From contig JAXHMM010000003.1 in the NCBI GenBank assembly GCA_034521445.1, positions 372,001 through 436,000 of the forward strand: a stretch of DNA of 64,000 nt. Reading direction: 5' to 3'. Origin of the DNA: Balneolaceae bacterium (GTDB lineage: Bacteria; Bacteroidota; Rhodothermia; Balneolales; Balneolaceae). The position numbers and the translations under genes are program-made. Shown in pieces: positions 21,961-63,842 of the stretch. Every line of letters starts with the position of its first letter. Position 1 is the first letter of the stretch. The notes under the pieces are model-generated. The model was given only the letters and a program-made list of their open reading frames with translations. It was not told where the DNA came from and did not search any database.

Positions 21961-22045
21961 GGACCCGTCCCGAACGTATTTCCGGTTTGAATACCGGCGC
22001 CGGAGTCCTATTTTTGGTTCCGAAAATCCGGGTCGCCCGCCAGGG

Positions 22046-22082
22046 CCGACAGGCCGCGCCGGGAGACGCCGCCGTCTGTCGG
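22046..22082 (+). other. possible hairpin in the cysQ leader
   Basis: CCGACAG (22046-22052) pairs with CTGTCGG (22076-22082) over a GC-rich 23-nt loop, in the 184-bp gap between the SLC13 transporter and cysQ. Possible structured leader; no known riboswitch consensus recognised. Confidence 0.25.
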
Positions 22083-22144
22083 TTAGCACGAAAATAAGGC
22101 GCACGGACCGGACGAACACTCACTTCCAGAATCCAACTCGATTT

Positions 22145-22897: not shown

Positions 22898-22963
22898 GAC
22901 TTCCCGACTTCAAGACTCTTCGACTTATCAGACTTAACAGACTTTAAGACTTTATGACTTTTA
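22898..22963. repeat. octamer array overlapping the cysC start codon
   Basis: About eight GACTTNNN units (two with an extra base) fill the whole gap between cysQ and cysC. The cysC ATG (22954-22956) spans the junction of the last two units, and codons 2-3 of CysC are repeat-derived. Confidence 0.92.
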
Positions 22964-24479: not shown

Positions 24480-24480
24480 C

Positions 24481-39860: not shown

Positions 39861-41069
39861 TTGAGCCAGGAAGAACAACCGCATCCCACACACTACCATC
39901 CCGCCCGGGAGGGAGGGGGGCAGGAGGTCTCCTCCGGCACCTACCAGCCTGCGGCTGCACCGGATGAAGGGGGCATACGTCCCATGGAGATCATGCTCTT
40001 CTTCTGGACCGAGCGGTTCATCATCGGACTGTTTCTGGGATTTTTCCTGGTGGGGGGCTTCGTCTACGCCTCCCTGAGTACCGAGGAGTATTCCGCCAAG
40101 ACGACGCTGCTTCCAGAAGGAGGCGGGACCCAAGGCATGGGGCAGAATCTGCTGCGCCAGTACGGCGGACTGCTGGGCATCAACATGCAGGGTACCCAGG
40201 GAGGCGAATTCCTGCCCACCAACATCTACCCCGACATCCTGCAAAGCGTGCCCTACCAGGTGGAGCTGATGAGCACCCCCATCTATTTTGAAAAGCAGGA
40301 CACCACCGTGACGCCCCACACCTGGTTTCGCGAACTTCAGCCTCCCGACAGGCTGGCCATGCTTCGGCGCTACACCCTCGGTCTCCCCTGGACCGTCTGG
40401 GGATGGATACGCGGAGGAGGCGGGGGAGGGGGCGCAACGCCCGAACCCGTCGCCACCCGGGTGAATCCCGACTCGGTGCTCGACGTATCGGGCACGCAGA
40501 TGGCCACCATCGGGCAGCTGCGCGGCCGCATCAGCATCATGCAGACCGACAACGGACTCATTCAGTTTACCGCTGAACTTCCCGATCCCCAGGCCGCCGC
40601 CGAGCTGGGCAACGTGGGCATCGAGCTGCTCAAGAAGTACGTCAGCGAGTACCGCACCGAAAAAGCGCAGCAGGATCTTGAGTTTGTACAACAGCAGTAC
40701 CAGCAGGCCCGGGAGCGCTTCCAGCAGGCGCAGATCGATCTGGCGGAGTTTCGCGACAGCAACCTCAATCCCGCCACCAACCGGGCCACCGTCAGGGAGC
40801 AGGTGCTGCAGTCGGAGTTTGACCTCGCCTCCAGCGTCTACAACTCCCTGGCCCAGAACCTGGAGCAGGCCAAACTGCGGGTGCAGGAAGAAACCCCGGT
40901 GTTCACCACCGTGGAGCCCCTGCTGGTGCCGCGCGGACCCAGTTCGCCCAACACCAAGCTGATCCTGGTCATATCCGCCTTTCTCGGGGTTATGGGCGGG
41001 GTGATCTTTGTCCTGCTGCGCAGGCAGTGGACGGAATTCCGGCAGATACTGCGCAGCCAGGTCTCCTGA
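39861..41069 (+). CDS. Wzz-like polysaccharide chain-length/co-polymerase protein (copy 2)
   Basis: A 402-aa protein starting TTG at 39861 (SQEEQPHPTHYHPARE). Hydrophobic helix near residues 52-70 (FIIGLFLGFFLVGGFVYASL); periplasmic body with coiled coil (QQDLEFVQQQYQQARERFQQ); Pro-rich PLLVPRGPSSPNTKL before the last membrane helix LILVISAFLGVMGGVIFVLL. It resembles copy 1 at 25960 in layout, including the Asn-rich NLNPATN motif found in both. A Gly-rich loop (GGGGGGGA) is unusual. It likely partners the downstream export machinery. Confidence 0.86.
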   Translation: MSQEEQPHPTHYHPAREGGGQEVSSGTYQPAAAPDEGGIRPMEIMLFFWTERFIIGLFLGFFLVGGFVYASLSTEEYSAKTTLLPEGGGTQGMGQNLLRQYGGLLGINMQGTQGGEFLPTNIYPDILQSVPYQVELMSTPIYFEKQDTTVTPHTWFRELQPPDRLAMLRRYTLGLPWTVWGWIRGGGGGGGATPEPVATRVNPDSVLDVSGTQMATIGQLRGRISIMQTDNGLIQFTAELPDPQAAAELGNVGIELLKKYVSEYRTEKAQQDLEFVQQQYQQARERFQQAQIDLAEFRDSNLNPATNRATVREQVLQSEFDLASSVYNSLAQNLEQAKLRVQEETPVFTTVEPLLVPRGPSSPNTKLILVISAFLGVMGGVIFVLLRRQWTEFRQILRSQVS

Positions 41070-41094
41070 CCATGTGCATTTCAACCGAGCAACT

Positions 41095-42052
41095 ATGAAC
41101 AAATCGGACAGCATCTACATCGCCGGCCACCGCGGCATGGTGGGATCGGCCGTCCGGCGCCGCCTGGAGAGCGAGGGCTACACCAACCTGATCCTGCGCA
41201 GCAGTTCGGAGCTCGATTTGAGAGACCAGGCTGCGGTGCGTGATTTTTTCGCCTCCGAGCAACCCCGCGTGGTGATCGATGCGGCGGCGCGCGTGGGCGG
41301 CATCCTGGCCAACGACCGGTATCCCTGGCAGTTCCTCTACGACAACCTGCAGATTCAGAACAACCTTATCGCCGCGGCCCACGAGCAGGAGGCCGAGCGC
41401 TTTATCTTCCTGGGCAGCTCCTGCATCTATCCCCGGAATACCGACCAGCCCATGCGCGAAGACGCCCTGCTGACCGGTCCCCTGGAGTCCACCAACCAGT
41501 GGTACGCCGTGGCCAAGATCGCCGGCGTCAAAATGGTCGAGGCCCTGCGCCGGCAGTACGGCCGCCGCTACGTCTCGCTCATGCCCACCAACCTCTACGG
41601 GCCCCGGGACAACTTCGACCTGGAGACCTCCCACGTGCTGCCCGCGCTCATCCGCAAATTCCACGAGGCCGCCCGGGATGACCACCGCCCGGTGACGCTC
41701 TGGGGCAGCGGCACGCCCAGGCGGGAGTTCCTGCATGTGGACGACGTGGCCGACGCCGTCCTTTTTGTGCTGCGGACGCGAGATGGAGCACGACCTCTAC
41801 AACGTGGGCACCGGCAAAGACCTGAGCATCAGGGAGCTGGCGGCTCTCATCCAGCGCATTACGGGACACGAGGGTGAGATTGAATGGGACCGCTCCAAGC
41901 CCGACGGCACGCCCCGCAAGCTGATGGACGTGAGCCGCATGCACGAGGCGGGCTGGGAGCACAGCATCGGGCTGGAGGAGGGCATACGGCAGACCTACGA
42001 GTGGTTCCGGAATCATATGAACGAAATCAAGGAAGTGGAGATCGAATCGTGA
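41095..42052 (+). CDS. fcl: GDP-L-fucose synthase (frameshifted)
   Basis: Together the two reading frames encode a full-length GDP-L-fucose synthase of about 318 aa. Frame 1 (from ATG 41095) gives [17 protein letters not shown], the NAD(P)-binding motif, and [20 protein letters not shown] with Tyr-x3-Lys. Near 41775-41795 the frame changes by one base to [20 protein letters not shown] and continues to TAG/TGA at 42052 ([19 protein letters not shown]). One inserted base, or a consensus error, explains it. The enzyme epimerises and reduces GDP-4-keto-6-deoxymannose. It overlaps gmd by 4 bp. Confidence 0.85.
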
Positions 42053-43104
42053 GCGCAAAGAACAAGGTTGCGCTGGTAACGGGCATTACGGGGCAGGACG
42101 GCTCCTACCTGGCCGAGCTGCTATTGGACAAGGGCTACGAGGTGCACGGCATCAAGCGCCGCGCCAGCCTCTTCAACACCGACCGGGTGGATCACCTCTA
42201 CCACGACCCCCATTTCAAGGGTTTGCCCTTCTACCTGCACTACGGCGACATGACCGACGCCACCAACCTCATCCGGATCATCCAGGAGACCCAGCCCGAC
42301 GAGATCTACAACCTGGCGGCCCAGAGCCACGTGCAGGTCTCCTTCGAGGCGCCCGAGTACACGACCGACGTGGACGCCATGGGCACGCTCCGCCTGCTGG
42401 AGGCCGTCCGCATCCTGGGCATGGAGGAGAAGACCCGCATCTACCAGGCCTCCACCTCCGAGCTCTACGGCAAGATACAGGAGACGCCCCAGTCGGAGAC
42501 CACCCCCTTCTATCCCCGCTCACCCTACGGGGCCGCCAAGCTCTACGCCTACTGGATCACCGTCAACTACCGGGAGGCCTACGGCATGTACGCCGTCAAC
42601 GGCATTCTCTTCAACCACGAATCCCCCCGCCGGGGCGAGACCTTCGTGACGCGCAAGATCACCCGCGCGGCCGTTCGCATCGCCGCCGGCCGCCAGAAAA
42701 AGCTCTTCCTGGGCAACCTGGACGCCCGGCGGGACTGGGGACACGCCCGTGACTACGTGCGGGGCATGTGGCTTATGCTGCAGCAGGAGGAGCCGGATGA
42801 TTTTGTGCTGGCCACGGGAAAAACCACCACCGTTCGCGACTTCTGCCGCATGGCCTTCCAGGCGGCGGGCATCGAACTGCAGTGGGAGGGCGAGGGGCAG
42901 CAGGAGGTCGGGCGGCACGCCGGAAACGGGGAGGTGCTGGTGGAGGTGGACCCGCAGTATTTCCGTCCCACCGAAGTGGACCTGCTGATCGGCGACGCCT
43001 CCAAGGCGGCCGAGCAGCTGGGATGGGAACCCGAGTACACCATCGACGCTCTCATTGAAGAAATGGTTGAAATGGACCGCAAGGCCATGGAGGAGAACCA
43101 ATAG
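42049..43104 (+). CDS. gmd: GDP-mannose 4,6-dehydratase
   Basis: A 351-aa extended SDR starting with GTG at 42049, overlapping the fcl stop (GTGA). Motifs are [76 protein letters not shown], and [19 protein letters not shown], all typical of GMD. It converts GDP-mannose to GDP-4-keto-6-deoxymannose, which Fcl turns into GDP-L-fucose. The order fcl-gmd makes a complete fucose-donor pathway from GDP-mannose. Confidence 0.95.
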
Positions 43105-44954: not shown

Positions 44955-46406
44955 ATGCTCTTCAACTCCCTCGATTTCGCGGTCTTTCTTCCCCTTGTAT
45001 TTCTTCTCTACTGGTTCGTCTTCCACCGCTCGGTACGCCTGCGCAACGCCTTCCTTATTGCGGCCAGCTACTTCTTCTACGGATGGTGGGACTGGCGCTT
45101 TCTCTTTCTCATCGTTTTCAGCACAGCGGTGGACTACCTGGTGGCGCTCCGCCTGGGCCGGGAGGAGGCGCCCGCCCGCCGCAAGGCCCTGCTCTGGACC
45201 AGCGTGGCCGTGAATATCGGCTTCCTGGGCTTTTTCAAATACTACAACTTCTTCGCCGAAAATTTCGTGGCCGCCTTCACCTTCTTCGGCGCGTCTTTCA
45301 GCCCGGCCACCCTCCACGTGGTGCTGCCGGTGGGCATCAGCTTCTACACCTTCCAGACGCTCAGCTACACCATCGACGTCTACAAGGGCAAGCTGGAGCC
45401 CTCCCGCGACCCGGTGGCCTACGCCGCCTTCGTCAGTTTCTTTCCCCAGCTGGTGGCCGGTCCCATCGAACGCGCCACCAACCTGCTGCCGCAGTTCATG
45501 AAAGCGCGCAGCTTCCATTACGGCAAGGCCGTGGACGGCCTGCGGCAGATGCTCTGGGGCTTCTTCCAGAAGGTGGTGATCGCCGACAACTGCGCGGTCT
45601 ATGTGAACGAAATCTTCGCGCGTTCGGGCGAGCTCCCCGGAAGCACGCTGGTCCTGGGCGCCGTGCTCTTCGCCTTTCAGATCTACGGCGACTTCGCCGG
45701 CTACTCCAACATCGCCATCGGCACGGCGCGCCTCTTCGGCTTCGACCTGATGCAGAACTTCGCCTTTCCCTATTTCTCCCGCGACATCGCGGAGTTCTGG
45801 CGGCGCTGGCACATCTCCCTCTCCACCTGGTTCCGCGACTATCTCTACATCCCCCTGGGCGGCAGCCGGGTGGGCGACTGGAAGAAGATCCGCAACACCT
45901 TCGTTATTTTTGTGGTGAGCGGTTTCTGGCACGGGGCGGCGTGGACCTTCATCGCCTGGGGATTCCTGAACGCCCTCTATTTCCTGCCCCTTTTCCTGGC
46001 CGAAAAGAACCGTAAATACCTGGACGTGGCGGGCCGGGGACGCCTGCTGCCCGGCCTTCGCGAAGCCGGGTCCATGGCGGCCACCTTCGGACTGACGGTC
46101 TTCGGCTGGATCTTTTTCCGTGCAGAGAGCCTCTCCCACGCCTTCAGTTACATAGGCAACATCTTCTCGGCCACGCTCTTTACCATGCCCGGTATCGCCA
46201 TGGGACAGATCTCGATGGGGGTGGTAGCCGCGCTGATCGCCTTCATGCTTTCGGTGGAGTGGATGGCCCGGGGTGACCGTCACGGGCTGGAAACGGTGGC
46301 CGCCGGCTGGCGCCGGCCCCTGCGATGGGCCTTCTACTACGCCATCCTGATCCTGATCATCCGGTATGCGGGTCCCCAGCAGGAATTTATCTATTTTCAG
46401 TTTTAG
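44955..46406 (+). CDS. MBOAT-family O-acyltransferase (AlgI-like)
   Basis: A 483-aa membrane protein with ten or so helices. MBOAT signatures: FQTLSYTIDVYKGKLEPSRD, WHISLSTWFRDYLYIPLGGS, and the catalytic histidine in FVVSGFWHGAAWTFIAWG. AlgI and relatives move acetyl groups across the membrane for O-acetylation of glycans (alginate, capsule, LPS). It lies 6 bp after the ABC transporter and 3 bp before a periplasmic SGNH-type protein, the usual two-gene acetylation arrangement. Confidence 0.92.
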   Translation: MLFNSLDFAVFLPLVFLLYWFVFHRSVRLRNAFLIAASYFFYGWWDWRFLFLIVFSTAVDYLVALRLGREEAPARRKALLWTSVAVNIGFLGFFKYYNFFAENFVAAFTFFGASFSPATLHVVLPVGISFYTFQTLSYTIDVYKGKLEPSRDPVAYAAFVSFFPQLVAGPIERATNLLPQFMKARSFHYGKAVDGLRQMLWGFFQKVVIADNCAVYVNEIFARSGELPGSTLVLGAVLFAFQIYGDFAGYSNIAIGTARLFGFDLMQNFAFPYFSRDIAEFWRRWHISLSTWFRDYLYIPLGGSRVGDWKKIRNTFVIFVVSGFWHGAAWTFIAWGFLNALYFLPLFLAEKNRKYLDVAGRGRLLPGLREAGSMAATFGLTVFGWIFFRAESLSHAFSYIGNIFSATLFTMPGIAMGQISMGVVAALIAFMLSVEWMARGDRHGLETVAAGWRRPLRWAFYYAILILIIRYAGPQQEFIYFQF

Positions 46407-46409
46407 CAT

Positions 46410-47483
46410 GTGATTACACCCCAAGGCATGAAACGCTTTTTCAAAAACACGCTTTTTTTCCTGCTGCTCTGCCTGGCGGGCAGCCTGCTGGCGCTCCAGC
46501 TTCTGCCCGACTATTACGGGAATCCCCTCTACAGCGACAAGCTGGAGGAGGCGAGGGAGCTGGCCGAAGCGGGCGAGGTCAACACCCTCTTTTACGGCTC
46601 GAGCCGGTTCTACCGCCATATCGACCCGCGGGTGACCGACAGCCTGCTGGCCGGTGAGGGTATGTCCAGTTATAACCTGGGAGCCACCAGCCTGCTGAAC
46701 CCCCAGTCGTACGTCCTCTACGAAGAGTTCCTGCGCGGGGAGAGGCCGGAGGTGGACTACGTCTTCCTGGAAATGAGCGGCTTTCGGCAGATCAAGCCGG
46801 GCAACATTCCCACGCCCATGAACTACCACTACCTCGACCCATGGTCGCTGGCCTACATCGCCCGGTACATGAAGGAGTCGCCGCGTCCCCTGGATGTGGG
46901 GGGGCGCATCTTATTGGAATACCTGGCTTCCTACGCCTATAAGATTCTCTATGCGGTTCCCGACCTGGTGGAAGCGCTGACGGGGGAGCGTGCGATCTCC
47001 GAGGCCGTGACCAGGGGCAGCCGGGGCTACTACTCCCTGGATGCCGAGTACCGGGCGGTGGAATCGGATTCCGATCCGGTGGCGCTTCGCCGCCGGCAGT
47101 TTCTGGATGATTCCACCGTGGTGGATCTCTACGCCTCCGCCTCCCGGCGGGCCTACGGGGAGGAGGGGGAACGGGCGCGGATAAACAGGGTACACCTGCA
47201 GCGCCTGCGCAGCCTCCTGGAGCTTTCCCGCAGCAGGGGCGTGGAGCTCTACTTTGTGATCTCGCCCCGCATGGCGCGCTACGACCGCATCCTGGCGGTT
47301 CGCGATTCCCTGCCGGAGGAGCGGGTGATCGACCTGGGCAGCATCGTGCGGTACCCCGGCTTCTACAGCCTGGAGCACACCTTCGACGCCAACCACCTGA
47401 ACGAGAAGGGGGCGTGGCATTTCAGCCGCGTGCTGGCCGAAGAGATACGGGAAAAGCTGAGTGGAGAGGCAGGGGCCCGGTAG
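46410..47483 (+). CDS. periplasmic SGNH-hydrolase-like protein, acyltransferase partner of MBOAT
   Basis: A 357-aa protein starting GTG 46410, or ATG 46428 (MKRFFKNTLFFLLLCLAG), which gives a cleaner signal anchor. SGNH-type features are LFYGSSRFYRHIDP near residue 55 (Gly-Ser-Ser) and DANHLNEKGAWHFSRVLAEE (Asp-x2-His) near the C-terminus. Such proteins take acetyl groups delivered by MBOAT and transfer them to the glycan (AlgJ/AlgX role). It ends the ABC-MBOAT-SGNH operon and converges on the B-repeat lipoprotein gene. Confidence 0.78.
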   Translation: MITPQGMKRFFKNTLFFLLLCLAGSLLALQLLPDYYGNPLYSDKLEEARELAEAGEVNTLFYGSSRFYRHIDPRVTDSLLAGEGMSSYNLGATSLLNPQSYVLYEEFLRGERPEVDYVFLEMSGFRQIKPGNIPTPMNYHYLDPWSLAYIARYMKESPRPLDVGGRILLEYLASYAYKILYAVPDLVEALTGERAISEAVTRGSRGYYSLDAEYRAVESDSDPVALRRRQFLDDSTVVDLYASASRRAYGEEGERARINRVHLQRLRSLLELSRSRGVELYFVISPRMARYDRILAVRDSLPEERVIDLGSIVRYPGFYSLEHTFDANHLNEKGAWHFSRVLAEEIREKLSGEAGAR

Positions 47484-47511: not shown

Positions 47512-49326
47512 TCAGAGGCTCAGTAGAAACATCAGGGCCTTGTAATAGACGGTACCCATGACCTGGAAGCCCTCCTCGTTCAGGTGTACCCCGTCTCCGC
47601 TCAGGTGGTCGTCCACGTTCAACTCGGCATACACGTCGGCCAGGATAATATTATCGCCGTCCTGCTGCCGCTGGTTCACGTGGCTGCGGAGGGCCTCATT
47701 GTAGTCGGCAATATGCTCCGCCCGGTCGCGCTCATCCATGGAGGGATCACCTACTATTTTGGAGGTGGCCGGGGGGATGGTGGCCGCCACCACGTAGGTG
47801 TGGGAAGGAGTGTTATCAAGAATCTTCTGCACGAGCTCGTTCCAGCGGTCGGCCATGGACTGCGCGGTCTCGTTATAGCCCCATACGATGTCGTTGGTGC
47901 CCACCATGAGATTCACGTAGCGGGGGTTGTGGCGGCCCAGCACGCCCACGATCTTGTCCGATATGCCCTTGATGGTAATGCCCGGAACCCCCTCGTGGTC
48001 GGTGTCGGGAATGGAAATGTTCTTTTTGGGACGGTCCTGGTCGCCCACGAAATCCACCCGGTAGCCGTCCCCGGTCAGCAGATTCCACAGCCGCTCCCGT
48101 GAGCCGGGGTCGTGGGTAAGGCTGTTGCCGAGGGGCATGATCACAAACAAGCGCTGGAAGGTGGCGTGCACGGTCTTCTGGCCGTCCATGGTCAGGGTGA
48201 CGGTGTTGGCGGTGCCCGATTGGGCTCCCCCCCATTTTACAAATTCGAAGTGGTCGTCCGCCGAGGCGCTCAATTTCACCTTGGTACCGTGCTCGTACTG
48301 CTCCTGGTCGGGCTCGCGGGTCACCTCGCCCTCACCGGTGACATTCACCGTCAGGGGGTAGGTCTTGATGGTAAAGGCCGCCTTGATCTGCTTCGATCCG
48401 TCCATGACCACCGTGGCCGGATTCGCGGTTCCCTCGAAATCGCCGGTCCATTCGGTGAACTTGTACCCCACGTTGGGCTTGGCTTCGATCTCCACCTCGG
48501 TGCCGTGCTCGTACTCCTCGAGGTCGGGCGATCTCGACACGCTTCCCGGTCCGTCGGCCTGCAGGCTGAGTTCGTAGGTGTTGATGGCGAAGTGTGCGTT
48601 CACCTGGCGGGGCCCCTTTACGGTGATGCGCGCGGGATTTTCGCTTCCCTCCAGGTCCCCGCTCCACTCCACGAAGTGGTGTCCCTCGTCGGGCTGAGCG
48701 GTAAGCTCCACCAGCGAGCCCCAGTCGTAGGTGGTGCTGTCGGCGGCCACCACCTGCTGGCTGACGGAGCCGTTGCCCTCGCTGTTTACCACCAGGTCGA
48801 AACGGTCGATCTCGAAGACGGCGGTAATCTTCTTGGGACCCTGCATCTGCACCTGGACGGTGTCCTGGGTCGACTGCAGGTCGCCGGTCCACTCCACGAA
48901 ATGCCAGCCCTCGGCCGGCACGGCGGCCAGCTCAACAACGGTGCCGTGCCGGTAGTCGTCGGCGGCCACCACCTGCTGGGTCACGCCGCCCTCGCCGACG
49001 GTATCCACGTCCAGCTCATACTCTTTCAGCTGGAATTCGGCCATAAGCGAGTAGTCGCGGTCCACCTTGAATTCCAGGGGATTGGTACTGTCGGTCCGGT
49101 CGCCGCTCCAGCGGACGAAGCGGTAGCCTTCCGAGGGAACGGCCTGCAGCCGCAGGGTGCGGCCCTCCTCCACGGTGCTGTCCGCCGGCGAGACCGTTCC
49201 GCCCCCCGGAGGGTCGGGCGTGGCTTCCACCTCGTAGAGGGTGGGCGTGCGGTCGCAGGAGGCCATCAGGGCCCCTGCGGCCAGCAGGATCAACCAAAGC
49301 GTGCGGCGCATGGACAAGAGATTCAC
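47512..49326 (-). CDS. lipoprotein with five B-repeats and C-terminal SGNH/GDSL hydrolase domain
   Basis: A 604-aa exported lipoprotein: signal RTLWLILLAAGALMASC gives a lipid-modified cysteine. Five tandem B-repeats of about 70-75 aa fill residues 30-390, each with an FVEWTGDLEG-like core, an EHGT segment and a final FxxxY transition; spacing is regular. The C-terminal domain (about 395-604) is a GDSL/SGNH hydrolase: IMPLGNSLTHDPGSRERLW, MVGTNDIVWG and DDHLSGDGVHLNEEGFQVMG. It probably acts on ester bonds, for example deacetylating a surface glycan, at the cell surface. It uses the same B-repeat family as the metallophosphatase at 13349-15511. Confidence 0.87.
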   Translation of the reverse strand: MNLLSMRRTLWLILLAAGALMASCDRTPTLYEVEATPDPPGGGTVSPADSTVEEGRTLRLQAVPSEGYRFVRWSGDRTDSTNPLEFKVDRDYSLMAEFQLKEYELDVDTVGEGGVTQQVVAADDYRHGTVVELAAVPAEGWHFVEWTGDLQSTQDTVQVQMQGPKKITAVFEIDRFDLVVNSEGNGSVSQQVVAADSTTYDWGSLVELTAQPDEGHHFVEWSGDLEGSENPARITVKGPRQVNAHFAINTYELSLQADGPGSVSRSPDLEEYEHGTEVEIEAKPNVGYKFTEWTGDFEGTANPATVVMDGSKQIKAAFTIKTYPLTVNVTGEGEVTREPDQEQYEHGTKVKLSASADDHFEFVKWGGAQSGTANTVTLTMDGQKTVHATFQRLFVIMPLGNSLTHDPGSRERLWNLLTGDGYRVDFVGDQDRPKKNISIPDTDHEGVPGITIKGISDKIVGVLGRHNPRYVNLMVGTNDIVWGYNETAQSMADRWNELVQKILDNTPSHTYVVAATIPPATSKIVGDPSMDERDRAEHIADYNEALRSHVNQRQQDGDNIILADVYAELNVDDHLSGDGVHLNEEGFQVMGTVYYKALMFLLSL

Positions 49327-49383: not shown

Positions 49384-50181
49384 TTAAATTTCCCAGTGCT
49401 CCCGCACCTGTCGGATGGTCTCTTCCGGGTAGAAATGCCGAAAATAGCGCGATCCGGCCATGCGGTCAAGGTAGGCCTCCGGCAACTTTACCCGCTCGCG
49501 GAAGTCGCGGTAGGTATGGGCATAGACCTTGTTGCGTCCCACATTGGCGTTCACGAGTTCAAATGCCGAAAGTCCGGTGAAGGTTCCGATAATTTTCTCT
49601 TTTTGGGGGTCGGGCAGGTCGTGGTGCAGGATGAGAAGCTCCACGCCGCGTCCGTTTTCGAGCACCCGCCAGCCCTTATCCCTCGGAAAGGGGTGGGCAT
49701 AGACGTCGATGCCGAAATGCTTTTCCATCTTGTCGAAGAAGATCAGGGGAATCCGGTGCGGGTAGTTTTCCAGGAAAAGCGTGCGAAGCTCCTCCAGGCT
49801 GAAGGTATGTTCCCGGTAGGGCACCCCGGTGTCGCGCTCGAAATTATGGAAGAAGGCCGACACGTTCCGGCCCACGGGCTCGCGGACGGGGGAGATGATT
49901 TTGAGAGGCCTTTTCTCTGCTTTATGGTACCAGCGGTGCAGCTTTCGCACCCACAGGTTGGGATGGCCCGCACGGAAGCTGTGGTCGTGCACGACAATGC
50001 CGGGGTAGCTTTCATACAGGGAGTTGTAAATAGAGCTGGAGGCCACCTTGCCCATCTGGAAAACAAAAACCGGCACATGGGGGTCCCAGCCGCGCCGGAG
50101 CTTAAAAAAACGCCCGGCCGCCAGGAGGGGATCCAGGTGGTACCGTATACGCTGCCGCCATTCCTCCGGTATCATGATCAT
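49384..50181 (-). CDS. sulfotransferase-like / capsular polysaccharide synthesis protein
   Basis: A 265-aa protein with a PAPS-binding P-loop-like segment VFVFQMGKVASSSIYNSL near residue 40, then IISPVREPVGRNVSAFFHNF, the 3'-phosphate-binding type motif (R-x7-S). This resembles carbohydrate sulfotransferases and the putative capsular polysaccharide synthesis (NKWYS) family. It would transfer sulfate from PAPS, made by cysDNC, to a sugar hydroxyl. Its ATG overlaps the stop of the GT29-like gene (4 bp), so the two are coupled and probably act on the same sugar. Confidence 0.72.
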   Translation of the reverse strand: MIMIPEEWRQRIRYHLDPLLAAGRFFKLRRGWDPHVPVFVFQMGKVASSSIYNSLYESYPGIVVHDHSFRAGHPNLWVRKLHRWYHKAEKRPLKIISPVREPVGRNVSAFFHNFERDTGVPYREHTFSLEELRTLFLENYPHRIPLIFFDKMEKHFGIDVYAHPFPRDKGWRVLENGRGVELLILHHDLPDPQKEKIIGTFTGLSAFELVNANVGRNKVYAHTYRDFRERVKLPEAYLDRMAGSRYFRHFYPEETIRQVREHWEI

Positions 50182-51458
50182 CTTCCCGCGTAAAATGTTT
50201 CCAGGCCGGAGAGGTAGTCCTCTTCGTCCATGTCCAGCACCCTCCCGCAGGCGGGGTCCGCTTCAATGAGGCCCGAATTCCTGAAATTTCTCATGGTCCC
50301 TAACTGGCTCAGGCAGTCGTGCACGGCCAGCGACCGGAGATGGTTTTCGTTGCGGTGATCGTGTGCAAGGAAATAGTTGTCGTGATGTCTCCTGCTGTCA
50401 TAATAGAAATTCATGTGGAATATCTTCAGGCGGGCAGGCCGGTGGAGCAGCAGATCGGCGATGGAGAGCTGTCCCAGGTTGGGAAATCCGCTGAAGTAGA
50501 ACAGGCGTGCCATGGGATTCTGCACGTTCTCCCTGTCCTGCAGGTGTGCCGAAAGGTCGTCATGCCTGCAGCGAAAGAGGGCATGGTCGAGCTCGTCGAG
50601 GACGTCCCACGCCTCCTCCCGCTTCAAATAGTCCAGGAAACCGCGGTTGTAGTAGGAGACGTCGGTCCGGGATCCGTAGACGGCGGGGTCTCCCGCCCCG
50701 GAGCGCCTTCCGTAGTTCATGCGGACCACCACGTCGAAGGAATCGATGAGCGGTCCCATCTGCTCCTCCGAGGCAGCGGGCCCCGCCACGGCCACGGAAC
50801 GTCCCTCCAGGTAGCGCCGGAAGGGGACATGATAGCCGGGCAGCGTTTCCGCCAGGGAAACCGCCTCCTCCAGGTTGCCGTCGCTGAGATGCAGGTAGAC
50901 CCGGTACTGGGTGCGCACGTTCTGTGGCATACGTACCAGCTCTTCCAGCCGGTCAAGCTCCCTGCGGGCCCGTTCAAGGCGTCCTGCGTCCACCAGTGCG
51001 CGAAATGCGCATTCCACCTGTTCGGGGGTGGCTTTTTCGGAAGAGGCTGTTGCCACCGCGGACTGCCGGGCATGACGTCGGAGGATGCCGGCGGTTTGGA
51101 GCAGCCCGCTGCGGAAACAGGCCTGGTAGAGCTGCAGCCATTGGCCGGCCGGCAGCAGGGCGGGAGAGAGTTCCCCGGCGAGGGACCGCAGCGTCCCGTC
51201 CTGCCGGGTGCCGGCGGCTTCCTCCAAGAGCCGATGCAGGAAGTTATCCGGCAGCGACGACAGGAATGCCATGCCGGAGAGCTGCTCCAGGGCCTCATCA
51301 AGGGTGCCGTCCCGGTACAGGCGCCGTGCCTCCTCAAACTGCCGCATGCTGCGGTCGGAGAGGGTGGCGGGTGACTCGTATTCGGTACGCAGCGTCGTCA
51401 CGGGAAGAAGGTAGCTGAACATGCGGCGCAGCTTTCGCAGCCAGTTCGATAGATTCAT
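50178..51458 (-). CDS. GT29-like (sialyltransferase-fold) glycosyltransferase with N-terminal helical domain
   Basis: A 426-aa protein. Residues 1-215 are alpha-helical and TPR-like (SDRSMRQFEEARRLYRDGTL). From about 215 it reads SVAVAGPAASEEQMGPLIDS, FDVVVRMNYGRR, then DPAVYGSRTDVSYYNRGF, a match to the L-type motif (G-P/N-x-S ... D-x-x-D-V-V-x-R-x-N) of GT29 sialyltransferases and bacterial relatives. GT29 enzymes use CMP-sialic acids. Two CMP-nonulosonic acid synthetases lie nearby (51678 and 55689), so transfer of a nonulosonic acid is the likely role. It overlaps the sulfotransferase-like gene by 4 bp. Confidence 0.68.
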   Translation of the reverse strand: MNLSNWLRKLRRMFSYLLPVTTLRTEYESPATLSDRSMRQFEEARRLYRDGTLDEALEQLSGMAFLSSLPDNFLHRLLEEAAGTRQDGTLRSLAGELSPALLPAGQWLQLYQACFRSGLLQTAGILRRHARQSAVATASSEKATPEQVECAFRALVDAGRLERARRELDRLEELVRMPQNVRTQYRVYLHLSDGNLEEAVSLAETLPGYHVPFRRYLEGRSVAVAGPAASEEQMGPLIDSFDVVVRMNYGRRSGAGDPAVYGSRTDVSYYNRGFLDYLKREEAWDVLDELDHALFRCRHDDLSAHLQDRENVQNPMARLFYFSGFPNLGQLSIADLLLHRPARLKIFHMNFYYDSRRHHDNYFLAHDHRNENHLRSLAVHDCLSQLGTMRNFRNSGLIEADPACGRVLDMDEEDYLSGLETFYAGR

Positions 51459-52415: not shown

Positions 52416-53345
52416 CTACTCGACGGAAAAACCGAGAAAATCCTCGTCGTAGCAGCCCAGCATGCGGGCTTTTTCCCGGAGCTCGTCGATCTGACGCTCG
52501 TTGAACAGCTCCCTGCCCCTGCCGCTGACCCCCCGGGAGAAGTTGATGCCCCCCTTTTCGGCAATACGTTCGGAAAAGTCCCGCACGCGGCGTTCCGATA
52601 CCTCCACCCCCAGTTCACGGGCCACCCGGCGCACCAAGGCCACCTCGTCCTGCTGGATTTCCTCGTAGGAAATAAAGATGGGGCGCAGGTCCGCATCACC
52701 CCGGAGGTCGTTCCATCCCACGTAGAAATTGATGTAGTTGTGGGCGAACAGATCGGAGACCACGTCCAGCTGGTATTCCCCCGACCCCCGGAGAAAACGC
52801 TCCAGGCCATCATCGGAGAGTATTTTGGGCGCCCGCTGGTCCCTCACCAGCATATCCCGCCGGCTGACCAGCGCGTCCAGCAGGTTGCGCGTCTGGATCA
52901 GCGGGCGCAGCCGCAGGGTGCGGATCAGCTTGAGGACCGTCGCTTTGGCCGTCGCGTGGCAATGCGAAATGGTGTTGCGTCCGGTGAAGCCTGCGGCAAG
53001 CAGCCTGGGAAAGTAGATGTCCCCGCCACCGCGGTCGAATCCGATCTGATGGTTCTTGAAATCGAGGGTCAGTGACAGCAGCTGCACCATGTGCAGGCCC
53101 GCCGACTTGGGCTGGGCGCAGTGCAGCACATGGAGGTTGCCGCTCTCCGACGGCTGGGTGATTTCCCCCTTCATCACCGCTTCCAGTACGGGGCGGCGTT
53201 TCGATTCGGGGACCGCAAGGTCGAGGGACCAGTCCCGCCCGGTCAGCTGGGGACCCCGGCGGTGTTTGGCCCAGAGATGGTAATAGAGAAGCTGCAGCGG
53301 ACGGACCAACGCCCCGGGCAGCAGCGATTTGATGCGGTCTTTCAT
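52416..53345 (-). CDS. sulfotransferase family protein
   Basis: A 309-aa protein starting at the ATG ending 53345. P-loop-like LHCAQPKSAGLHMVQLLSLT near residue 80 corresponds to the 5'-phosphosulfate loop, and LIQTRNLLDALVSRRDML corresponds to the 3'-phosphate motif. A later FISYEEIQQDEVALVRRVAR fits the sulfotransferase core. It would use PAPS to sulfate a glycan. Divergent from pseB with a 127-bp shared regulatory region. Confidence 0.74.
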   Translation of the reverse strand: MKDRIKSLLPGALVRPLQLLYYHLWAKHRRGPQLTGRDWSLDLAVPESKRRPVLEAVMKGEITQPSESGNLHVLHCAQPKSAGLHMVQLLSLTLDFKNHQIGFDRGGGDIYFPRLLAAGFTGRNTISHCHATAKATVLKLIRTLRLRPLIQTRNLLDALVSRRDMLVRDQRAPKILSDDGLERFLRGSGEYQLDVVSDLFAHNYINFYVGWNDLRGDADLRPIFISYEEIQQDEVALVRRVARELGVEVSERRVRDFSERIAEKGGINFSRGVSGRGRELFNERQIDELREKARMLGCYDEDFLGFSVE

Positions 53346-53407
53346 GAGTGAAAAATGTAGTACTTTATACCGGTAACAGCAACGCCGGCGGGATGGCGAC
53401 CCGGCGA

Positions 53408-53436
53408 TTGATAAACGCACGATTTTTAGCTAACAT
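53408..53436 (+). promoter_or_regulatory. sigma70-like promoter for pseB
   Basis: TTGATA at 53408-53413 and TAACAT at 53431-53436 are separated by 17 bp, 36 bp upstream of the pseB ATG. Plausible start of the nonulosonic acid operon. Confidence 0.35.
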
Positions 53437-53472: not shown

Positions 53473-54489
53473 ATGCTGAACAACAAATCGGTACTGGTCA
53501 CGGGCGGTACCGGCTCCTTCGGGCAGGCTTTTACGCGCGCTGTGCTGGAGCGCTGGCCCGACATCGAACGCCTGGTGATCTTTTCCCGGGACGAGCAGAA
53601 GCAGTTCCGGATGGAGCAGGAATTTCCCAAGAGCAAATATCCCGCCATACGCTATTTTATCGGGGATGTGAGGGATCGCGACCGGCTCAAGCGGGCCATG
53701 AAGGGCATCGAGTACGTGGTGCATGCCGCGGCCATGAAGCACGTGCCCATCTCCGAGTATAACCCCATGGAGTGCATCAAGACCAACATCCTGGGGGCCG
53801 AAAACCTGATCTCGGTCTGCCTGGAGACGGACGTGGAGAAGGTGGTGGCCCTCTCCACCGACAAGGCGGCCGCCCCCATCAACCTCTACGGCGCCACCAA
53901 GCTGGCCTCCGACAAGCTTTTCATCGCCGGTAACAACATCAAGGGGTGGAATCCCATCACCTTTTCGGTGGTGCGCTACGGCAACGTGATGGGCTCGAAC
54001 GGCTCGGTCATTCCCTTCTTTCTGAAAAAGCGCTCCGAGGGCGTGCTGCCCGTTACCGACACGGAGATGACCCGCTTCAACATTACGCTGGACGAGGCGG
54101 TGGAGATGGTGCTGAATGCCCTCGACAAGGCCTGGGGCGGGGAGCTTTTTGTACCCAAAATTCCCTCCTACCGCATAACAGACCTGGCGGAGGCTATCGG
54201 ACCCGATTGCGAGATCGAGGTGGTGGGGAGGCGGCCCGGCGAAAAGATCCACGAGGCGATGATCACCGAGGCCGACTCCTACTACACGTGGGACCTGGGC
54301 GACTACTACGCCATCCTGCCGCCCACGCCCAACAAGTGGACGGTGGAGGAGTTCGAGGAGCATTTCAAGGCGAAAAAGGTGCCCCGGGGCTTCCGCTACA
54401 ACTCGGGAGAAAACGACGAGTGGCTCAGCGTGGAGCAGCTGCGCCGGATGATCCGCGAGCACGTAGATCCCACCTTCGAAGTCGACTGA
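53473..54489 (+). CDS. pseB: UDP-N-acetylglucosamine 4,6-dehydratase (inverting), PseB
   Basis: A 338-aa SDR enzyme: VLVTGGTGSFGQAFTRAVLE, SRDEQKQFRMEQEF, HAAAMKHVPISEYNPMECIK, ALSTDKAAAPINLYGATKLA and VVRYGNVMGSNGSVIPFFLK, all PseB hallmarks. It removes water from UDP-GlcNAc with C5 inversion, giving the L-altro 4-keto intermediate of pseudaminic acid synthesis. First gene of the nonulosonic acid operon, 27 bp before pseC. Confidence 0.95.
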   Translation: MLNNKSVLVTGGTGSFGQAFTRAVLERWPDIERLVIFSRDEQKQFRMEQEFPKSKYPAIRYFIGDVRDRDRLKRAMKGIEYVVHAAAMKHVPISEYNPMECIKTNILGAENLISVCLETDVEKVVALSTDKAAAPINLYGATKLASDKLFIAGNNIKGWNPITFSVVRYGNVMGSNGSVIPFFLKKRSEGVLPVTDTEMTRFNITLDEAVEMVLNALDKAWGGELFVPKIPSYRITDLAEAIGPDCEIEVVGRRPGEKIHEAMITEADSYYTWDLGDYYAILPPTPNKWTVEEFEEHFKAKKVPRGFRYNSGENDEWLSVEQLRRMIREHVDPTFEVD

Positions 54490-54516: not shown

Positions 54517-55692
54517 ATGAACATGGACACGCCCATACCCTATGGCAGGCAATCCATCGACGAGGAGGATATACGGGCGGTGACCGAGGTGCTGCGCAGC
54601 AACTACCTCACCCAGGGTCCCCGCATCCCGGCCTTTGAAGAGGAATTCGCCGGCTACATAGGCTGCGAGCACGCCGTGGCCGTGGCCAACGGCACCGCCG
54701 CCCTCCACCTGGGCGTGCTGGCGCTGGGCCTGCAACCGGGCCAGAAGGTCATCACCACGCCCCTCACCTTCGCCGCCTCCGCCAACTGTGTGCGCTATGC
54801 CGGGGGACTGGTAGATTTTGTGGATATCGACCCGCATACCTGGCTGATGGACCTGGACGCCCTGGAGCGCAAGCTGGAGAAGGCCCCGGAAGGCACCTAC
54901 GCCGGGGTGATACCGGTGGACTTCACCGGGCTGGCCGTCGACACCGAAGGCCTGCGCGAACTGGCCGACCGGCACGGGCTCTGGATACTGGAGGACGCCT
55001 GCCACGCTCCCGGCGGTTCCTTTCTCAACTCCCAGGGCGAGACGGTGCGCTGCGGGGACGGCCGCTACGCCGACGCCGCCATCTTCTCCTTTCACCCGGT
55101 CAAGCATATTGCGGCGGGGGAGGGGGGCATGGTCACCACCAACGACCCCGGCGTGAAGGAGCGCCTGGAGCTGCTGCGCACCCACGGCATCACCAAGGAC
55201 CCCGAACGCCTCCGCGAGAACCACGGCGGCTGGTACTACGAGATGCAGGAGCTGGGGTACAACTTCCGGCTGACCGACATGCAGTGCGCGCTGGGACGCT
55301 CCCAGCTGCGCCGTGCCGACGAGCGCCTGGAGCGCCGCCGCCGCATCGCCGCCCGCTACGACGAGGCCTTCGCCGGGCACCCGTCCATCACCCGCCAGGC
55401 GGTCGACCCGGAGACCCGCGACCGGCACCACGCCTGGCACCTCTACGTGATCGGCGTGCCGGAGCGCAAAAAACTATACGACCGCCTGCACGAACAGCAG
55501 ATCCTCTGCCAGGTGCACTACATCCCGGTGCACCTGCAACCCTACTATCGCGACCGGGGCTGGGAAAAAGGAGATTTCCCCCGGACCGAAGCCTACTACG
55601 AGCGCTGCCTCAGCCTCCCCATGTATCCCACGCTGAGCGACGAGCAGCAGGAATATGTCATCCGCAACGTTTTAAAAGCACTCGACTCATGA
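54517..55692 (+). CDS. pseC: UDP-4-amino-4,6-dideoxy-N-acetyl-L-altrosamine transaminase, PseC
   Basis: A 391-aa PLP-dependent aminotransferase of the DegT/DnrJ family: VTEVLRSNYLTQGPRIPAFE, HAVAVANGTAALHLGVLALG, LEDACHAPGGSF and the PLP lysine in FSFHPVKHIAAGEGGMVTTN, plus YNFRLTDMQCALGRSQL. It aminates the PseB product at C-4. It overlaps the CMP-synthetase gene by 4 bp (ATGA). Order pseB-pseC-pseF matches known pseudaminic acid clusters. Confidence 0.94.
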   Translation: MNMDTPIPYGRQSIDEEDIRAVTEVLRSNYLTQGPRIPAFEEEFAGYIGCEHAVAVANGTAALHLGVLALGLQPGQKVITTPLTFAASANCVRYAGGLVDFVDIDPHTWLMDLDALERKLEKAPEGTYAGVIPVDFTGLAVDTEGLRELADRHGLWILEDACHAPGGSFLNSQGETVRCGDGRYADAAIFSFHPVKHIAAGEGGMVTTNDPGVKERLELLRTHGITKDPERLRENHGGWYYEMQELGYNFRLTDMQCALGRSQLRRADERLERRRRIAARYDEAFAGHPSITRQAVDPETRDRHHAWHLYVIGVPERKKLYDRLHEQQILCQVHYIPVHLQPYYRDRGWEKGDFPRTEAYYERCLSLPMYPTLSDEQQEYVIRNVLKALDS

Positions 55693-56393
55693 ATCGCATC
55701 GCCGTTATCCCCGCCCGCGGGGGCAGCAAGCGCATCCCGCGAAAGAACATCAGGGAATTCTGCGGGCGCCCCCTCATCGGATGGTCCATCGAGGCGGCCC
55801 TCGACTCGGGGCTGTTCGACAGGATCATCGTCTCGACGGACGACGAGGAGATCGCCGAAGTGGCCCGCTCCGAGGGGGCCGAGGTGCCCTTTATGCGTCC
55901 CGACCGCCTGGCCGACGACTACACCGGCACGGGACCGGTGATCCGCCACGCTGTGGAGTGGGTGCTGGAACACGGCGAACGCCCCGATTATATATGTACC
56001 ATCTACGCCACCGCTCCCTTCGTACGGGCCGAAGACCTCAAAGAGGGGCTCGCGAAGCTCAGGGAGGCCGACGACGCCCACAAGTCCTTCTCCGTCACCT
56101 CCTTTCCCTTTCCCATCCAGCGCGCCATTCGCATCACCGGGGAGGGACGCGTGGAGATGTTCCAGCCCGAGCACGAGAAGACCCGCTCGCAGGACCTGGA
56201 GGAGGCCTACCACGACGCGGGGCAGTTCTACTGGAGTACCCTGGAGGGGGTGTTGGAGGACGTGCCCACCTTTTCCCACGCCAGCGTGCCCGTCATCCTG
56301 CCGCGGCATCGGGTGCAGGATATTGATACGCCGGAAGACTGGAAGAGTGCTGAAAGACTCTTTCGAGTCTTTCAGCACTCTTCCAAGTCTTAA
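55689..56393 (+). CDS. pseF: CMP-nonulosonic acid synthetase (PseF-type)
   Basis: A 234-aa cytidylyltransferase starting ATG 55689, overlapping the pseC stop: VIPARGGSKRIPRKNIREFC, STDDEEIAEVARSEGAEVPF, ICTIYATAPFVRAEDLKEGL and FYWSTLEGVLEDVPTF. It activates the finished nonulosonic acid with CTP. The usual family end (DTPEDWKSAE) is followed by a non-family tail, LFRVFQHSSKS, which comes from a perfect 20-bp inverted repeat and the first octamer unit; its stop codon lies in the octamer array. Confidence 0.9.
   Translation: MNRIAVIPARGGSKRIPRKNIREFCGRPLIGWSIEAALDSGLFDRIIVSTDDEEIAEVARSEGAEVPFMRPDRLADDYTGTGPVIRHAVEWVLEHGERPDYICTIYATAPFVRAEDLKEGLAKLREADDAHKSFSVTSFPFPIQRAIRITGEGRVEMFQPEHEKTRSQDLEEAYHDAGQFYWSTLEGVLEDVPTFSHASVPVILPRHRVQDIDTPEDWKSAERLFRVFQHSSKS
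56341..56384. repeat. perfect 20-bp inverted repeat inside the pseF 3' end
   Basis: 56341-56360 is the exact reverse complement of 56365-56384, with a 4-nt loop (TTTC). It is translated as the last residues of the CMP synthetase. The hairpin has no following T-tract, so it is not a standard intrinsic terminator. Confidence 0.9.
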
Positions 56394-56441
56394 AGTCTAA
56401 TAAGTCTTAAAGTCGGAAAGTCAGAAAGTCTTGAAGTCGGA
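56385..56441. repeat. octamer array at the pseF/ATP-grasp junction
   Basis: Seven AAGTCNNN units (one is 9 bp) contain the pseF stop (56391-56393). The final A of the last unit is the first base of the ATP-grasp gene's ATG (56441). Confidence 0.92.
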
Positions 56442-57772: not shown

Positions 57773-57792
57773 TCCCCTTCAGGTTCAACGAC

Positions 57793-61712: not shown

Positions 61713-62976
61713 ATGAAAAAGGCCATTCTTTTGTAGGAGGTCCAGCGGGACCCTCCCCGGCATACGCACGGCCCGCGAGATGGGACTTCATACGGTGGTC
61801 AGCGACTACAATCCGGAGAGCGGTGGGATATCGAGGCGGCGGATGACAGCCTGCTGGCCCAGCTGGTTATACGATGTGGAGGAGACCGTGGAGGCCGCCC
61901 GGCGCTACCACCGGGAGGTGCATCCCCTCCATGGGGTCACCGCCATGGCCACCGACGCGCCGCTGACCGTGGCCCGCGTGGCGGAGGATCTCGGCCTGCC
62001 AGGTACCGCTGCGCGGTCGAGATCGCCCGCTTGGCGACCGACAAGCTGGCCATGAAAAACTTCTTCCAGGGGAGCGCGATATTCCGATCCCCGCCTATCA
62101 TCCCGTCGAGAGCGCGGCGGACCTGGAGAGCATGGCCGGCCGGGGAGTACGGCTCCCCGCTCGATTGTCGAACCGGGGTGGACAAACCGGGGCGCGCGGG
62201 GCGTGCTGCGGCTGGCGCCGGAGATCGACCTGGAGTGGGCGTTCCGGCACGCCCTCGACCACTCGCCCTCCGGGCAGGTAATGGCCGAGGAATTCCTGGA
62301 AGGTCCCCAGCTGGCGCGGAGACCCTCGTGGTAGAAGGGGAGGCCCACACGCCGGCATATCGGACCGCAACTACGAATTTCTGGAAAAACTAGCCCCCAC
62401 ATCATCGAAAACGGGGGCGACCTTCCCAGTTTCCTGCCGGAGGAGAGATCACCCGTGCGCGAGAGCTGCTGGCGGACCTCCACATCCGGAAACTGGACAT
62501 TGAAACCGGGGTCGTCAAGGGGGACCTGCGTCTTCTGGGGGGTACCCTATATCATCGAGCTGGCCCTTCGGCATGTCGCGAGGGCTTTTTCGCCGCGCCC
62601 ACGAAATGCCCCTGAACACCGGGGTGGATTTCGTGAAGCCAGGCCCTGCGCACCGCCCTGGGCCTGGATGTTCCGACCGGGAACCTGGAGCCCGAAATGA
62701 CCAGGCCGCGAAACGTGTGTCAGCGCTACTTTGTTCCCGACCCGGGCGTGATCCGCGAGATACGCGTGCCCGACTGGGTGAGGCAGGATCCCGGGGTCGC
62801 CCTGCTTGTCTTCTGGATGAAGGAGGGCGACCGCATCGAATCTCCCACGCATCACGTTGCACGACCCGGGCTGGTGATAGTGACGGGCGACAGCAGGCAG
62901 GAGGCCCGGGAACGGGCCGGACGGGTGATCGAGGCTGTCGACTCTGTACTCTCGAAGAACACGCAACGCCGTGACC
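61713..62976 (+). CDS. ATP-grasp ligase-like protein 2, frame-disrupted
   Basis: Starting from ATG 61713 (MKKAILF) the sequence reads, across several frames, as an ATP-grasp enzyme: GIRTAREMGLHTVVSDYNPES, GVTAMATDAPLTVARVAEDL, GLPG...ATDKLAMKNFF, an ATP loop near 62170-62210 (VDNRGARGVLRLAPEI after correction), GQVMAEEFLEGPQL and the standard IELALR magnesium site. The C-terminal part RPRNVCQRYFVPDPGVIREI reads cleanly in frame from 62697. About 410 aa once indels are repaired. Unlike ATP-grasp 1 it keeps the usual E-x-(x)-x-R pattern. It probably joins a carboxylate to a sugar amine. Confidence 0.7.
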
Positions 62977-63842
62977 AGATTTGTCGCCGAAGTTTCCTCC
63001 AACCACAACGCTGACCTCGAGCGCTGCAAGGCCTTCGTGCGCCGGTCGGCCGATATGGGTTGGGCGACGCCGGTGAAGTTTCAAGCTCTTCCAGGTCGAC
63101 CGTCTCTTCGCACCCGAAATCCTGGAACGTGCCGAAGGTGGTGGCGAGCCGGGAAGAGTGGGAGCTGCCGGAAGCGTGGTTTCCCCGAGCTGGCTGAAAC
63201 CAGCCGGGAGGCGGGCGTAGAGATGGGCTGCACGCCCTTCCACCTGGAGGCGGTCGATTTCCTGGAACCCTACGTCGACTTTTTCAAGATCGCCTCCTAC
63301 GAGCTGCTCTGGGACGACCTGCTGGCCCGCTGCGCATCGACCGGCCTGCCGGTCATCCTCTCCACCGGGCATGGCCGTTCTCGAGGAGATCGCCCATGCC
63401 GTGGAGGTGCTCGTCTCCAGCGGCTGCGAGGAGCCCGAGCTGCTTCACTGCACCTCCGCCTATCCCCACTCTCCCTACCGGGAGGCGAACCTGGCGGCCA
63501 TCGCCACCCTCCGTGAACGGACCGGCTGCCGGATCGGCTGGTCGGACCATACCGTGGAACCGGCCGTGATCTACCGCGCCGTGCATCGCTGGAAGGCCGG
63601 CACCGTGGAAGCTCACCTGGACCTGGAGGGGGAGGGGGCCGAATACGGCGGGGACACTGCTGGCTGCCTGAGGAGATGGCGCCGGTCATCCGCAACATCC
63701 GCAAGGGTGGGAGGACCGAACGGAGAAAGGGGAGAAGCAGCCGGTCCCTGCCGGAGAGCCGGATGGCCCCTGGCGGACGGATCCGAGCGACGGGCTGCGC
63801 CCCTTCAAGTCGGTGCGAGAGGAATGGAAAAGAGAAAGTTAG
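62971..63842 (+). CDS. N-acetylneuraminate/pseudaminate synthase family (NeuB/PseI-like), frame-disrupted
   Basis: From GTG 62971 the sequence reads TRFVAEVSSNHNADLERCKA, the NeuB opening (AEIGxNHxG-like). It continues with GVEMGCTPFHLEAVDFLEPY, VDFFKIASYELLWDDLLARC, LPVILSTG, and, in other frames, HCTSAYPHSPYREANLAAIA and RIGWSDHT, the canonical family run. The reading frame shifts repeatedly, as elsewhere after 61.2 kb. The end is TAG near 63840-63842. The enzyme condenses phosphoenolpyruvate with a 6-carbon aminosugar to form a nonulosonic acid. Whether Neu, Pse or another product cannot be told. Confidence 0.78.

Follow-up and report, generated by a model that had tools for sequence, protein, structure and literature searches.

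The window, by which we mean the whole analysed stretch of 64,000 nucleotides of Balneolaceae DNA, contains two adjoining genes on the minus strand, one encoding a GT29-like transferase candidate and the other a protein of the NKWYS family (PF10364). The pair and its immediate neighbours are the following:

47512..49326, minus strand: GDSL/SGNH-hydrolase protein with five InlB-type repeats and a lipobox-like start
49384..50181, minus strand: NKWYS (PF10364) sulfotransferase candidate, 265 aa
50173..50181, minus strand: ATGA overlap and alternative start, read from the sequence
50178..51458, minus strand: GT29-like nonulosonyltransferase candidate, 426 aa
51678..52382, plus strand: CMP-nonulosonate-type cytidylyltransferase, PseF-like, divergent from the GT29-like gene
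52416..53420, minus strand: second, divergent sulfotransferase candidate with a weak, sub-cut-off Sulfotransfer_1 match

The upstream, GT29-like ORF ends in TGA and shares the 4 bp ATGA with the first ATG of the NKWYS ORF, in agreement with the original prediction of a 4-bp overlap on the minus strand. However, a second in-frame ATG stands two codons downstream of the first, with GGGAAG six bases before it, and may be the true NKWYS start, in which case a 2-bp gap follows the GT29-like stop and there is no overlap. The earlier description of the two genes as fused in translation was too strong: nothing at the junction points to a fused product, and the two ORFs encode separate proteins, the translation of which may be coupled. 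Homologues support both reading frames, so that neither is a chance ORF. The CMP-nonulosonic acid synthetase that had been placed beside the pair is indeed there, as the cytidylyltransferase at 51678-52382 (PF02348, E = 1.6e-21), the match of which to the PseF model (E = 2e-44, 151.9 bits) lies below the cut-off of 205.7. Past the GT29-like gene, this cytidylyltransferase is followed by the second sulfotransferase candidate (homologues in 2 of 395 genomes, its own counted, a number too small to build on) and then by pseB, pseC and pseF. A gap of 57 bp separates the NKWYS gene from the GDSL/SGNH-hydrolase gene downstream of it, which has the same orientation, and the two are probably in one operon. 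None of the three proteins submitted to PADLOC had a match.

The GT29-like protein consists of a helical, TPR-like N-terminus (approximately residues 35-205) and a GT29-type catalytic domain (approximately 210-420). Compared alone with PF00777, it scores 13.8 bits (E = 0.039) and does not reach the gathering score of 23. Matches to the protein were found in 3 of the 296 genomes of the same phylum, its own included, and an independent search with the PF00777 model gave sub-cut-off matches in 2 of the 296, both at foreign loci already found with the protein, and none elsewhere. As a single query, it had no match in the close-relative scan of genome contigs, and none by tblastn against phages and plasmids; phmmer of the GT29-like or the NKWYS protein against the PDB yielded nothing significant. 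With the domain alignment (A2) as the query and one genome per species, we identified 36 GT29-like loci. The window protein was aligned with 28 of these 36 (L026 as two segments) and two viral loci, giving 32 rows. PF00777 recognises 29 of them at E <= 0.1, the best value being 3.8e-13. Three residues, R246, G262 and H380, are invariant across this alignment, and in all 32 rows H380 aligns with the VS-motif His of canonical GT29 members. The VS motif, of the form His-x4-Glu, reads HDCLSQ in the window protein, with Gln where the VS-motif Glu is expected. Another stretch, HDHRNE, was dropped as a candidate VS motif, the invariant aligned His being H380 (HDCLSQ). By eye we also spotted a P-N-x-G stretch resembling sialylmotif S, which MAFFT sets one column off and which we therefore left out of the motif tests.

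Searches with profiles link the protein to GT29 more strongly than its own sequence does. The wider family profile, with canonical members included (A3), finds ST3Gal-I at E = 1.1e-8 with the VS-type HD aligned, whereas GT42 appears in the family profile search at E = 0.55 or worse. A profile of 16 rows from the clade of the window protein (A7) matches GT29 structures over motif L at 5e-4 to 6e-3, and reaches ST3Gal-I at 5.3e-4 over sialylmotif L. For the AlphaFold (AF2) model, which is confident (pLDDT 86.2, pTM 0.86), the top VIA structural match is 2wml (Z = 13.2, rmsd 3.0 Å, 179 aligned); GT29 entries occupy rows 1-13 of the VIA ranking, followed by the GT42 Cst enzymes at Z of about 10-11.6 (first GT42, Z = 11.6). 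Foldseek likewise places a GT29 enzyme, ST8SiaIII, first, although its E value of 1.3e-3 is modest. Structurally, the model is therefore closest to GT29 enzymes, and the GT29-like call of the original prediction is supported by the fold (Z = 13.2), the profile match to ST3Gal-I and the motif residues R246, G262 and H380. The GT29 sialyltransferases (ST3Gal-I, 2wml/2wnb; ST8SiaIII, 5bo6-5bo9; ST6Gal1) have the fold, the sialylmotif L region and the VS His in common with the window protein, which differs from them in being bacterial, in its TPR-like N-terminus, in the Gln replacing the VS Glu, and in its sub-gathering Pfam score. GT42 (CstI/CstII) has the same fold but a lower score (Z of about 10-11.6) and a weaker profile likeness than GT29.

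In the tree, the window protein falls within an 18-row clade (support 99/97), most rows of which have an extended N-terminus and which includes Elusimicrobiota, Verrucomicrobiota, Pseudomonadota, Myxococcota, Chlorobiota and Actinomycetota. Its closest relatives are from metagenome-assembled Elusimicrobia and Opitutales bacteria, with a top identity of 36%. Bacterial GT29-like proteins are already known: 23 are reported in PMC5811610, described as having neither the transmembrane domain nor the disulfide cysteines of the eukaryotic enzymes. They share the GT29 motifs, and the window protein may be set apart from them by its place in the 18-row clade with mostly extended N-termini. Its assignment to the GT29 type, as a member of a divergent bacterial clade, is well supported. 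The Pfam score below threshold, the replaced VS Glu and the helical-repeat N-terminus would also fit a protein that has lost catalysis and acts as a scaffold together with its TPR-like part. We consider this very improbable, given that the VS His, the Arg and Gly of motif L and the P-N-x-G stretch resembling motif S are retained, and that the same Gln occurs in three homologues (L024, L025 and L032), all uninterrupted ORFs, of which L032 lies in a nonulosonate cluster.

The NKWYS protein matches PF10364 above its gathering cut-off (E = 3.4e-16, 59.9 bits vs. 25.1), a family that Pfam names "putative capsular polysaccharide synthesis", with no activity stated. It was found in 4 of the 296 genomes of the same phylum, its own included, and in three plasmid records (tblastn); tblastn against phages and the single-protein viral scan gave no match. 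The protein contains MGKVAS at residues 43-48 and REPVGRNVS at residues 100-108, and its relatives retain a loop of the MGKV[GA]S type and a motif of the R[DEN]P...S type, which we take to be the 5'-PSB-like and 3'-PB-like elements, respectively, of PAPS sulfotransferases. Alignment scans returned 5 and 16 loci, partly overlapping, which served mainly to deepen the alignment for fold prediction and to count motifs. K45 is invariant in alignments A4 (8 of 8 rows) and A5 (9 of 9) and is conserved in at least 90% of the 14 rows of A6 (Arg in L069); R100 is invariant in all three, and S108 is invariant in A4 and A5 and conserved in at least 90% of rows in A6. The family profile matches heparan sulfate 3-O-sulfotransferase 3 (3-OST-3) over the 3'-PB region at E = 0.031.

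For the AF2 model of the NKWYS protein (pLDDT 80.0, pTM 0.77), the two structure searches gave different results. Among the best 50 Foldseek matches there is no sulfotransferase (best E = 0.1), whereas in a second look with VIA, rows 1-49 of the best 50 are sulfotransferase-fold entries, among which we count retinol dehydratase 1x8j, and the first other fold appears at Z = 6.4. The top VIA match is the heparan 3-O-sulfotransferase 3bd9 (Z = 10.0, rmsd 3.6, 176 aligned), and the heparan sulfate 3-O-sulfotransferases 3bd9, 1t8t and 3uan are among the best matches (Z = 9.7-10.0), although identity to them is 10-12% and the NKWYS protein is bacterial. Because the best 50 Foldseek matches contain no sulfotransferase, the fold assignment rests on the second aligner and the motifs. 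Taken together, the predicted PAPS-sulfotransferase fold (VIA Z = 10.0) and the motif residues K45, R100 and S108 agree with the earlier sulfotransferase-like call, and the NKWYS protein is well supported as a candidate PAPS sulfotransferase.

A set of genes for sulfate activation and PAP recycling lies in the same window, next to a transporter gene:

20146-21960: CitMHS/sulfate-symporter-type transporter
21929..22891, plus strand: cysQ, 3'(2'),5'-bisphosphate nucleotidase (PAP recycling)
22954..23469, plus strand: cysC, adenylyl-sulfate kinase (makes PAPS)
23574..24479, plus strand: cysD, sulfate adenylyltransferase small subunit
24481..25758, plus strand: cysN, sulfate adenylyltransferase large subunit

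We found no PAPS reductase in the genome, its single PF01507 match being cysD, and no NIR_SIR match indicative of a sulfite reductase, which the same search detected in 11 of 14 control genomes. As the genome is 97.83% complete, the PAPS is probably used for sulfation, and these gene contents suggest that the PAPS of the locus serves sulfation rather than sulfur assimilation. There are five Sulfotransfer_1 matches elsewhere in the genome, and several sulfotransferases may share the PAPS of the locus.

To the other side of the pair lie genes for nonulosonate synthesis:

53473..54489, plus strand: pseB, UDP-GlcNAc 4,6-dehydratase (inverting), 499 bits vs. the NCBIfam cut-off of 407.75
54517..55692, plus strand: pseC aminotransferase, 480.3 bits vs. 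the NCBIfam cut-off of 423.5
55686..56393, plus strand: pseF, pseudaminic acid cytidylyltransferase, 335.9 bits vs. the NCBIfam cut-off of 205.7
62971..63631, plus strand: NeuB/PseI-type synthase, split over two reading frames

Thus, PseB, PseC and PseF of the pseudaminic acid pathway score above their cut-offs and the PseI-type gene is split; PseH was not seen, in the course of searches not dedicated to it. Since the split synthase is the only NeuB-type synthase gene found in the genome, the nonulosonate pathway may be interrupted, or this gene may be misassembled. Splits of this kind, which may be assembly indels or true breaks, lie at about 41.8 kb in fcl, at about 61.27 kb in an SDR gene and at about 63.37 kb in the PseI-type gene. 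Near the GT29-like gene, a gene of the CMP-ulosonate-synthetase type is present in 17 of the 36 homologous loci and NeuB-type genes in 5 of the 36, vs. 0 of 20 control stretches in both cases, the controls being 20-kb stretches from three genomes of the phylum of the window, unmatched to the 36 loci, several of which are shortened by contig ends. Among loci L024-L039, which hold the clade of the window protein, 12 of 16 have such a synthetase gene. Some of the synthetase matches, that of L035 among them, may represent SpsF-type relatives and not NeuA. In L025 the synthetase and GT29-like genes overlap by 4 bp, and in L041 the synthetase gene is the one directly downstream. Ten synthetases from nine loci were scanned, and all have PseF as their best-scoring cytidylyltransferase model, with 1 of the 10 passing the cut-off. 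In L032, from Chlorobiaceae, pseB and pseC directly follow the GT29-like gene and neuA/neuB/neuC-type genes precede it; a search of the window plus 14 kb detected no relative of the L032 genes of the PseG, NeuC or FemAB type.

Both of the CTP_transf_3 genes found in the genome lie in this cluster, and this, together with the synthetase enrichment, makes a CMP-nonulosonate the likely donor of the GT29-like enzyme. Kdo transfer was set aside, as these two PseF-type genes are the only CTP_transf_3 genes detected, although a further one could lie in the 2% of the genome missing from the assembly. A CMP-sugar other than pseudaminic acid, for instance of the legionaminic or Kdn type and supplied by the PseF-like cytidylyltransferase, is conceivable, though we lean against it. 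The adjoining cytidylyltransferase scores under the PseF cut-off, the homologues in L029, L032 and L042 are accompanied by NeuA/NeuB/NeuC-type genes, and in L025 the cytidylyltransferase is fused to a KdsC/KDN-9-phosphatase-like domain; on the other hand, the one scanned NCBIfam match of the single NeuB-type synthase in the genome is PseI, and the window plus 14 kb contains no NeuC match.

The window further contains genes for a polymer-assembly pathway and for additional sugars and modifications:

27178..28692, plus strand: Wzx-type polysaccharide flippase
28751..30883, plus strand: Wzy_C polymerase/ligase-type protein, the listed ORF overlapping the preceding GT2 gene
41008..43104, plus strand: GDP-fucose genes fcl (C-terminal part in another frame) and gmd
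44955..47483, plus strand: MBOAT O-acyltransferase and the following gene (46410-47483, no Pfam match)

The true start of the Wzy_C protein is probably further in than that of the listed ORF, and O-acylation of the polymer by the MBOAT gene and the gene at 46410-47483 is possible. A Wzz-type protein, glycosyltransferases, a methyltransferase, a sugar transferase and an ABC transporter are also encoded. That the window is the setting of a sulfated, nonulosonate-containing polysaccharide of the Wzx/Wzy type is well supported. The synechan xss locus of the cyanobacterium Synechocystis, which makes a sulfated polymer, also combines a Wzx/Wzy exopolysaccharide with sulfotransferases, although rhamnose, mannose, galactose and glucose are the sugars reported for it; its authors searched with PF00685, PF03567 and PF13469 and not PF10364 (PMC8205485). 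Nonulosonic acids and sulfate groups are described together in sludge polymers (PMC10483923), and pseudaminic acid in marine bacterial polysaccharides (PMC7281560). The open-licence literature searched yielded no mention of NKWYS or PF10364, and titles and abstract openings in the open-licence subset reported no structure of a sulfated bacterial nonulosonic acid.

From the computed folds, motifs and neighbouring pathways, and the absence of detectable reductive PAPS use, we infer a Wzx/Wzy locus with its own sulfate donor, in which the GT29-like enzyme adds a nonulosonic acid and the NKWYS enzyme sulfates the same repeat unit, a reading that we regard as probable. In this scheme, the GT29-like enzyme, acting in the cytoplasm, would move the nonulosonic acid from its CMP form, made by one or both of the neighbouring cytidylyltransferases, to a lipid-linked repeat unit. 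The NKWYS enzyme, expressed together with it, would then place sulfate from PAPS on a hydroxyl of the same lipid-linked repeat unit before export, with PAPS supplied by the products of cysC, cysD and cysN and PAP removed by that of cysQ. The donor would be the CMP-nonulosonate discussed above, and both enzymes would act on one repeat unit, one sugar of which would bear the sulfate.

The identity of that sugar is where the readings diverge. The original prediction assigned the sulfate to the nonulosonic acid or its acceptor, which is possible and rests on the adjacency of the two genes in one genome. The nonulosonate setting (PseB, PseC and PseF) and sulfation at the locus (the cysQ-cysC-cysD-cysN genes) are supported, but with phmmer and one profile round none of the 36 other GT29-like loci yielded an NKWYS gene, and genes of this family also occur near fucose genes. 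A regular-expression search for sulfotransferase motifs in the same 36 loci returned only L044, with two chance-looking ORFs; as it missed the second sulfotransferase candidate of the window, this test is weak. Accordingly, the NKWYS enzyme could sulfate another sugar, most likely fucose, the adjacency reflecting only a shared, large polysaccharide locus; we consider this plausible, though less likely than not. Besides the lack of the pair in all 36 other loci, it is in line with the presence of gmd and fcl in the window and with part of the six genome or plasmid loci at which we looked at NKWYS neighbourhoods: in Thalassovita, the NKWYS gene lies between gmd and the GDP-L-fucose synthase gene, with a small hypothetical gene separating it from gmd, and the Methylosinus copy is also near gmd. 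Against fucose, the NKWYS gene of the window abuts the GT29-like gene while gmd and fcl lie about 6 kb off on the opposite strand, and in L012, within this sample of 6 loci, there is no gmd/fcl match near the NKWYS gene. The NKWYS homologue of L012 comes after cysC, cysD and cysN, no more than about 1 kb away, and an NKWYS gene was also seen near an annotated adenylyl-sulfate kinase gene in Methylosinus (L062).

By analogy with the vertebrate sialate 8-O-sulfotransferases, the NKWYS enzyme might alternatively sulfate the nonulosonic acid itself after its transfer, which we judge somewhat unlikely. The ATGA-linked gene pair would fit such a role, as would the two sulfotransferase candidates that flank the GT29-like gene and the second cytidylyltransferase, and in vertebrates sialic acid is known to be sulfated after its transfer (PMC9304399); the sialate O-sulfotransferases WSCD1 and WSCD2, which are eukaryotic, would be functional analogues if the nonulosonic acid is sulfated. 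The pairing is not conserved, however, and none of the sequence features tested identifies the acceptor. It is unlikely, in our estimate, that the pair as a whole does in a bacterium what sialate sulfation does in vertebrates, with a divergent GT29-type enzyme placing a pseudaminic-type acid in the exopolysaccharide and the NKWYS enzyme sulfating that acid.

The locus offers testable functions for two poorly described bacterial families. The GT29-like clade spans at least six phyla, mostly has long N-termini, and often occurs with CMP-ulosonate synthetases, and PF10364, the public name of which carries no activity, looks like a family of PAPS sulfotransferases. Should the sulfate sit on the nonulosonic acid, the locus would provide bacteria with a route to sulfated sugars of the sialic acid type, which are best known from animals.

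Only two CTP_transf_3 genes were found in the whole of genome G000, which carries the window (51678-52382 and 55686-56393); both are PseF-type and no separate KdsB was found in this genome, and the cell may therefore lack Kdo. The sole NeuB/PseI-type synthase detected in the same genome lies at 62971-63631, where its coding sequence is spread over two reading frames, a split that reflects an indel in the assembly or else a genuine interruption. Frame breaks are recurrent in the window, since the fcl gene (41008-42052) and an SDR-type gene (60936-61708) also continue in another frame.

Further features of the window are:

56441-60905, ATP-grasp protein, glycerate-2-kinase-like protein and transketolase in two ORFs, inside the pseudaminic cluster
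47512-49326, the gene immediately downstream of the GT29-like/NKWYS pair, for a GDSL/SGNH hydrolase that begins with a lipobox-like stretch and carries five InlB-type repeats
20146-25758, transporter and cysQ-cysC-cysD-cysN, adjoining exopolysaccharide genes

Among the GT29-like homologues, a single ORF of about 2,000 residues in Rhabdochromatium (L026:119-6091) contains two GT29-like domains and additional domains, and single ORFs at loci L040 and L046 join a GT29-like domain with a methyltransferase domain. NKWYS-family genes are borne by viral-collection contigs L063-L083; on L067 the gene is surrounded by phage-like genes, and L066 has two transketolase-half-like ORFs near its NKWYS gene, as the pseudaminic cluster of the window has a transketolase in two ORFs.

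Neither PAPS reductase nor sulfite reductase was detectable in genome G000, in which the transporter and cysQ-cysC-cysD-cysN genes are probably a dedicated sulfation supply.
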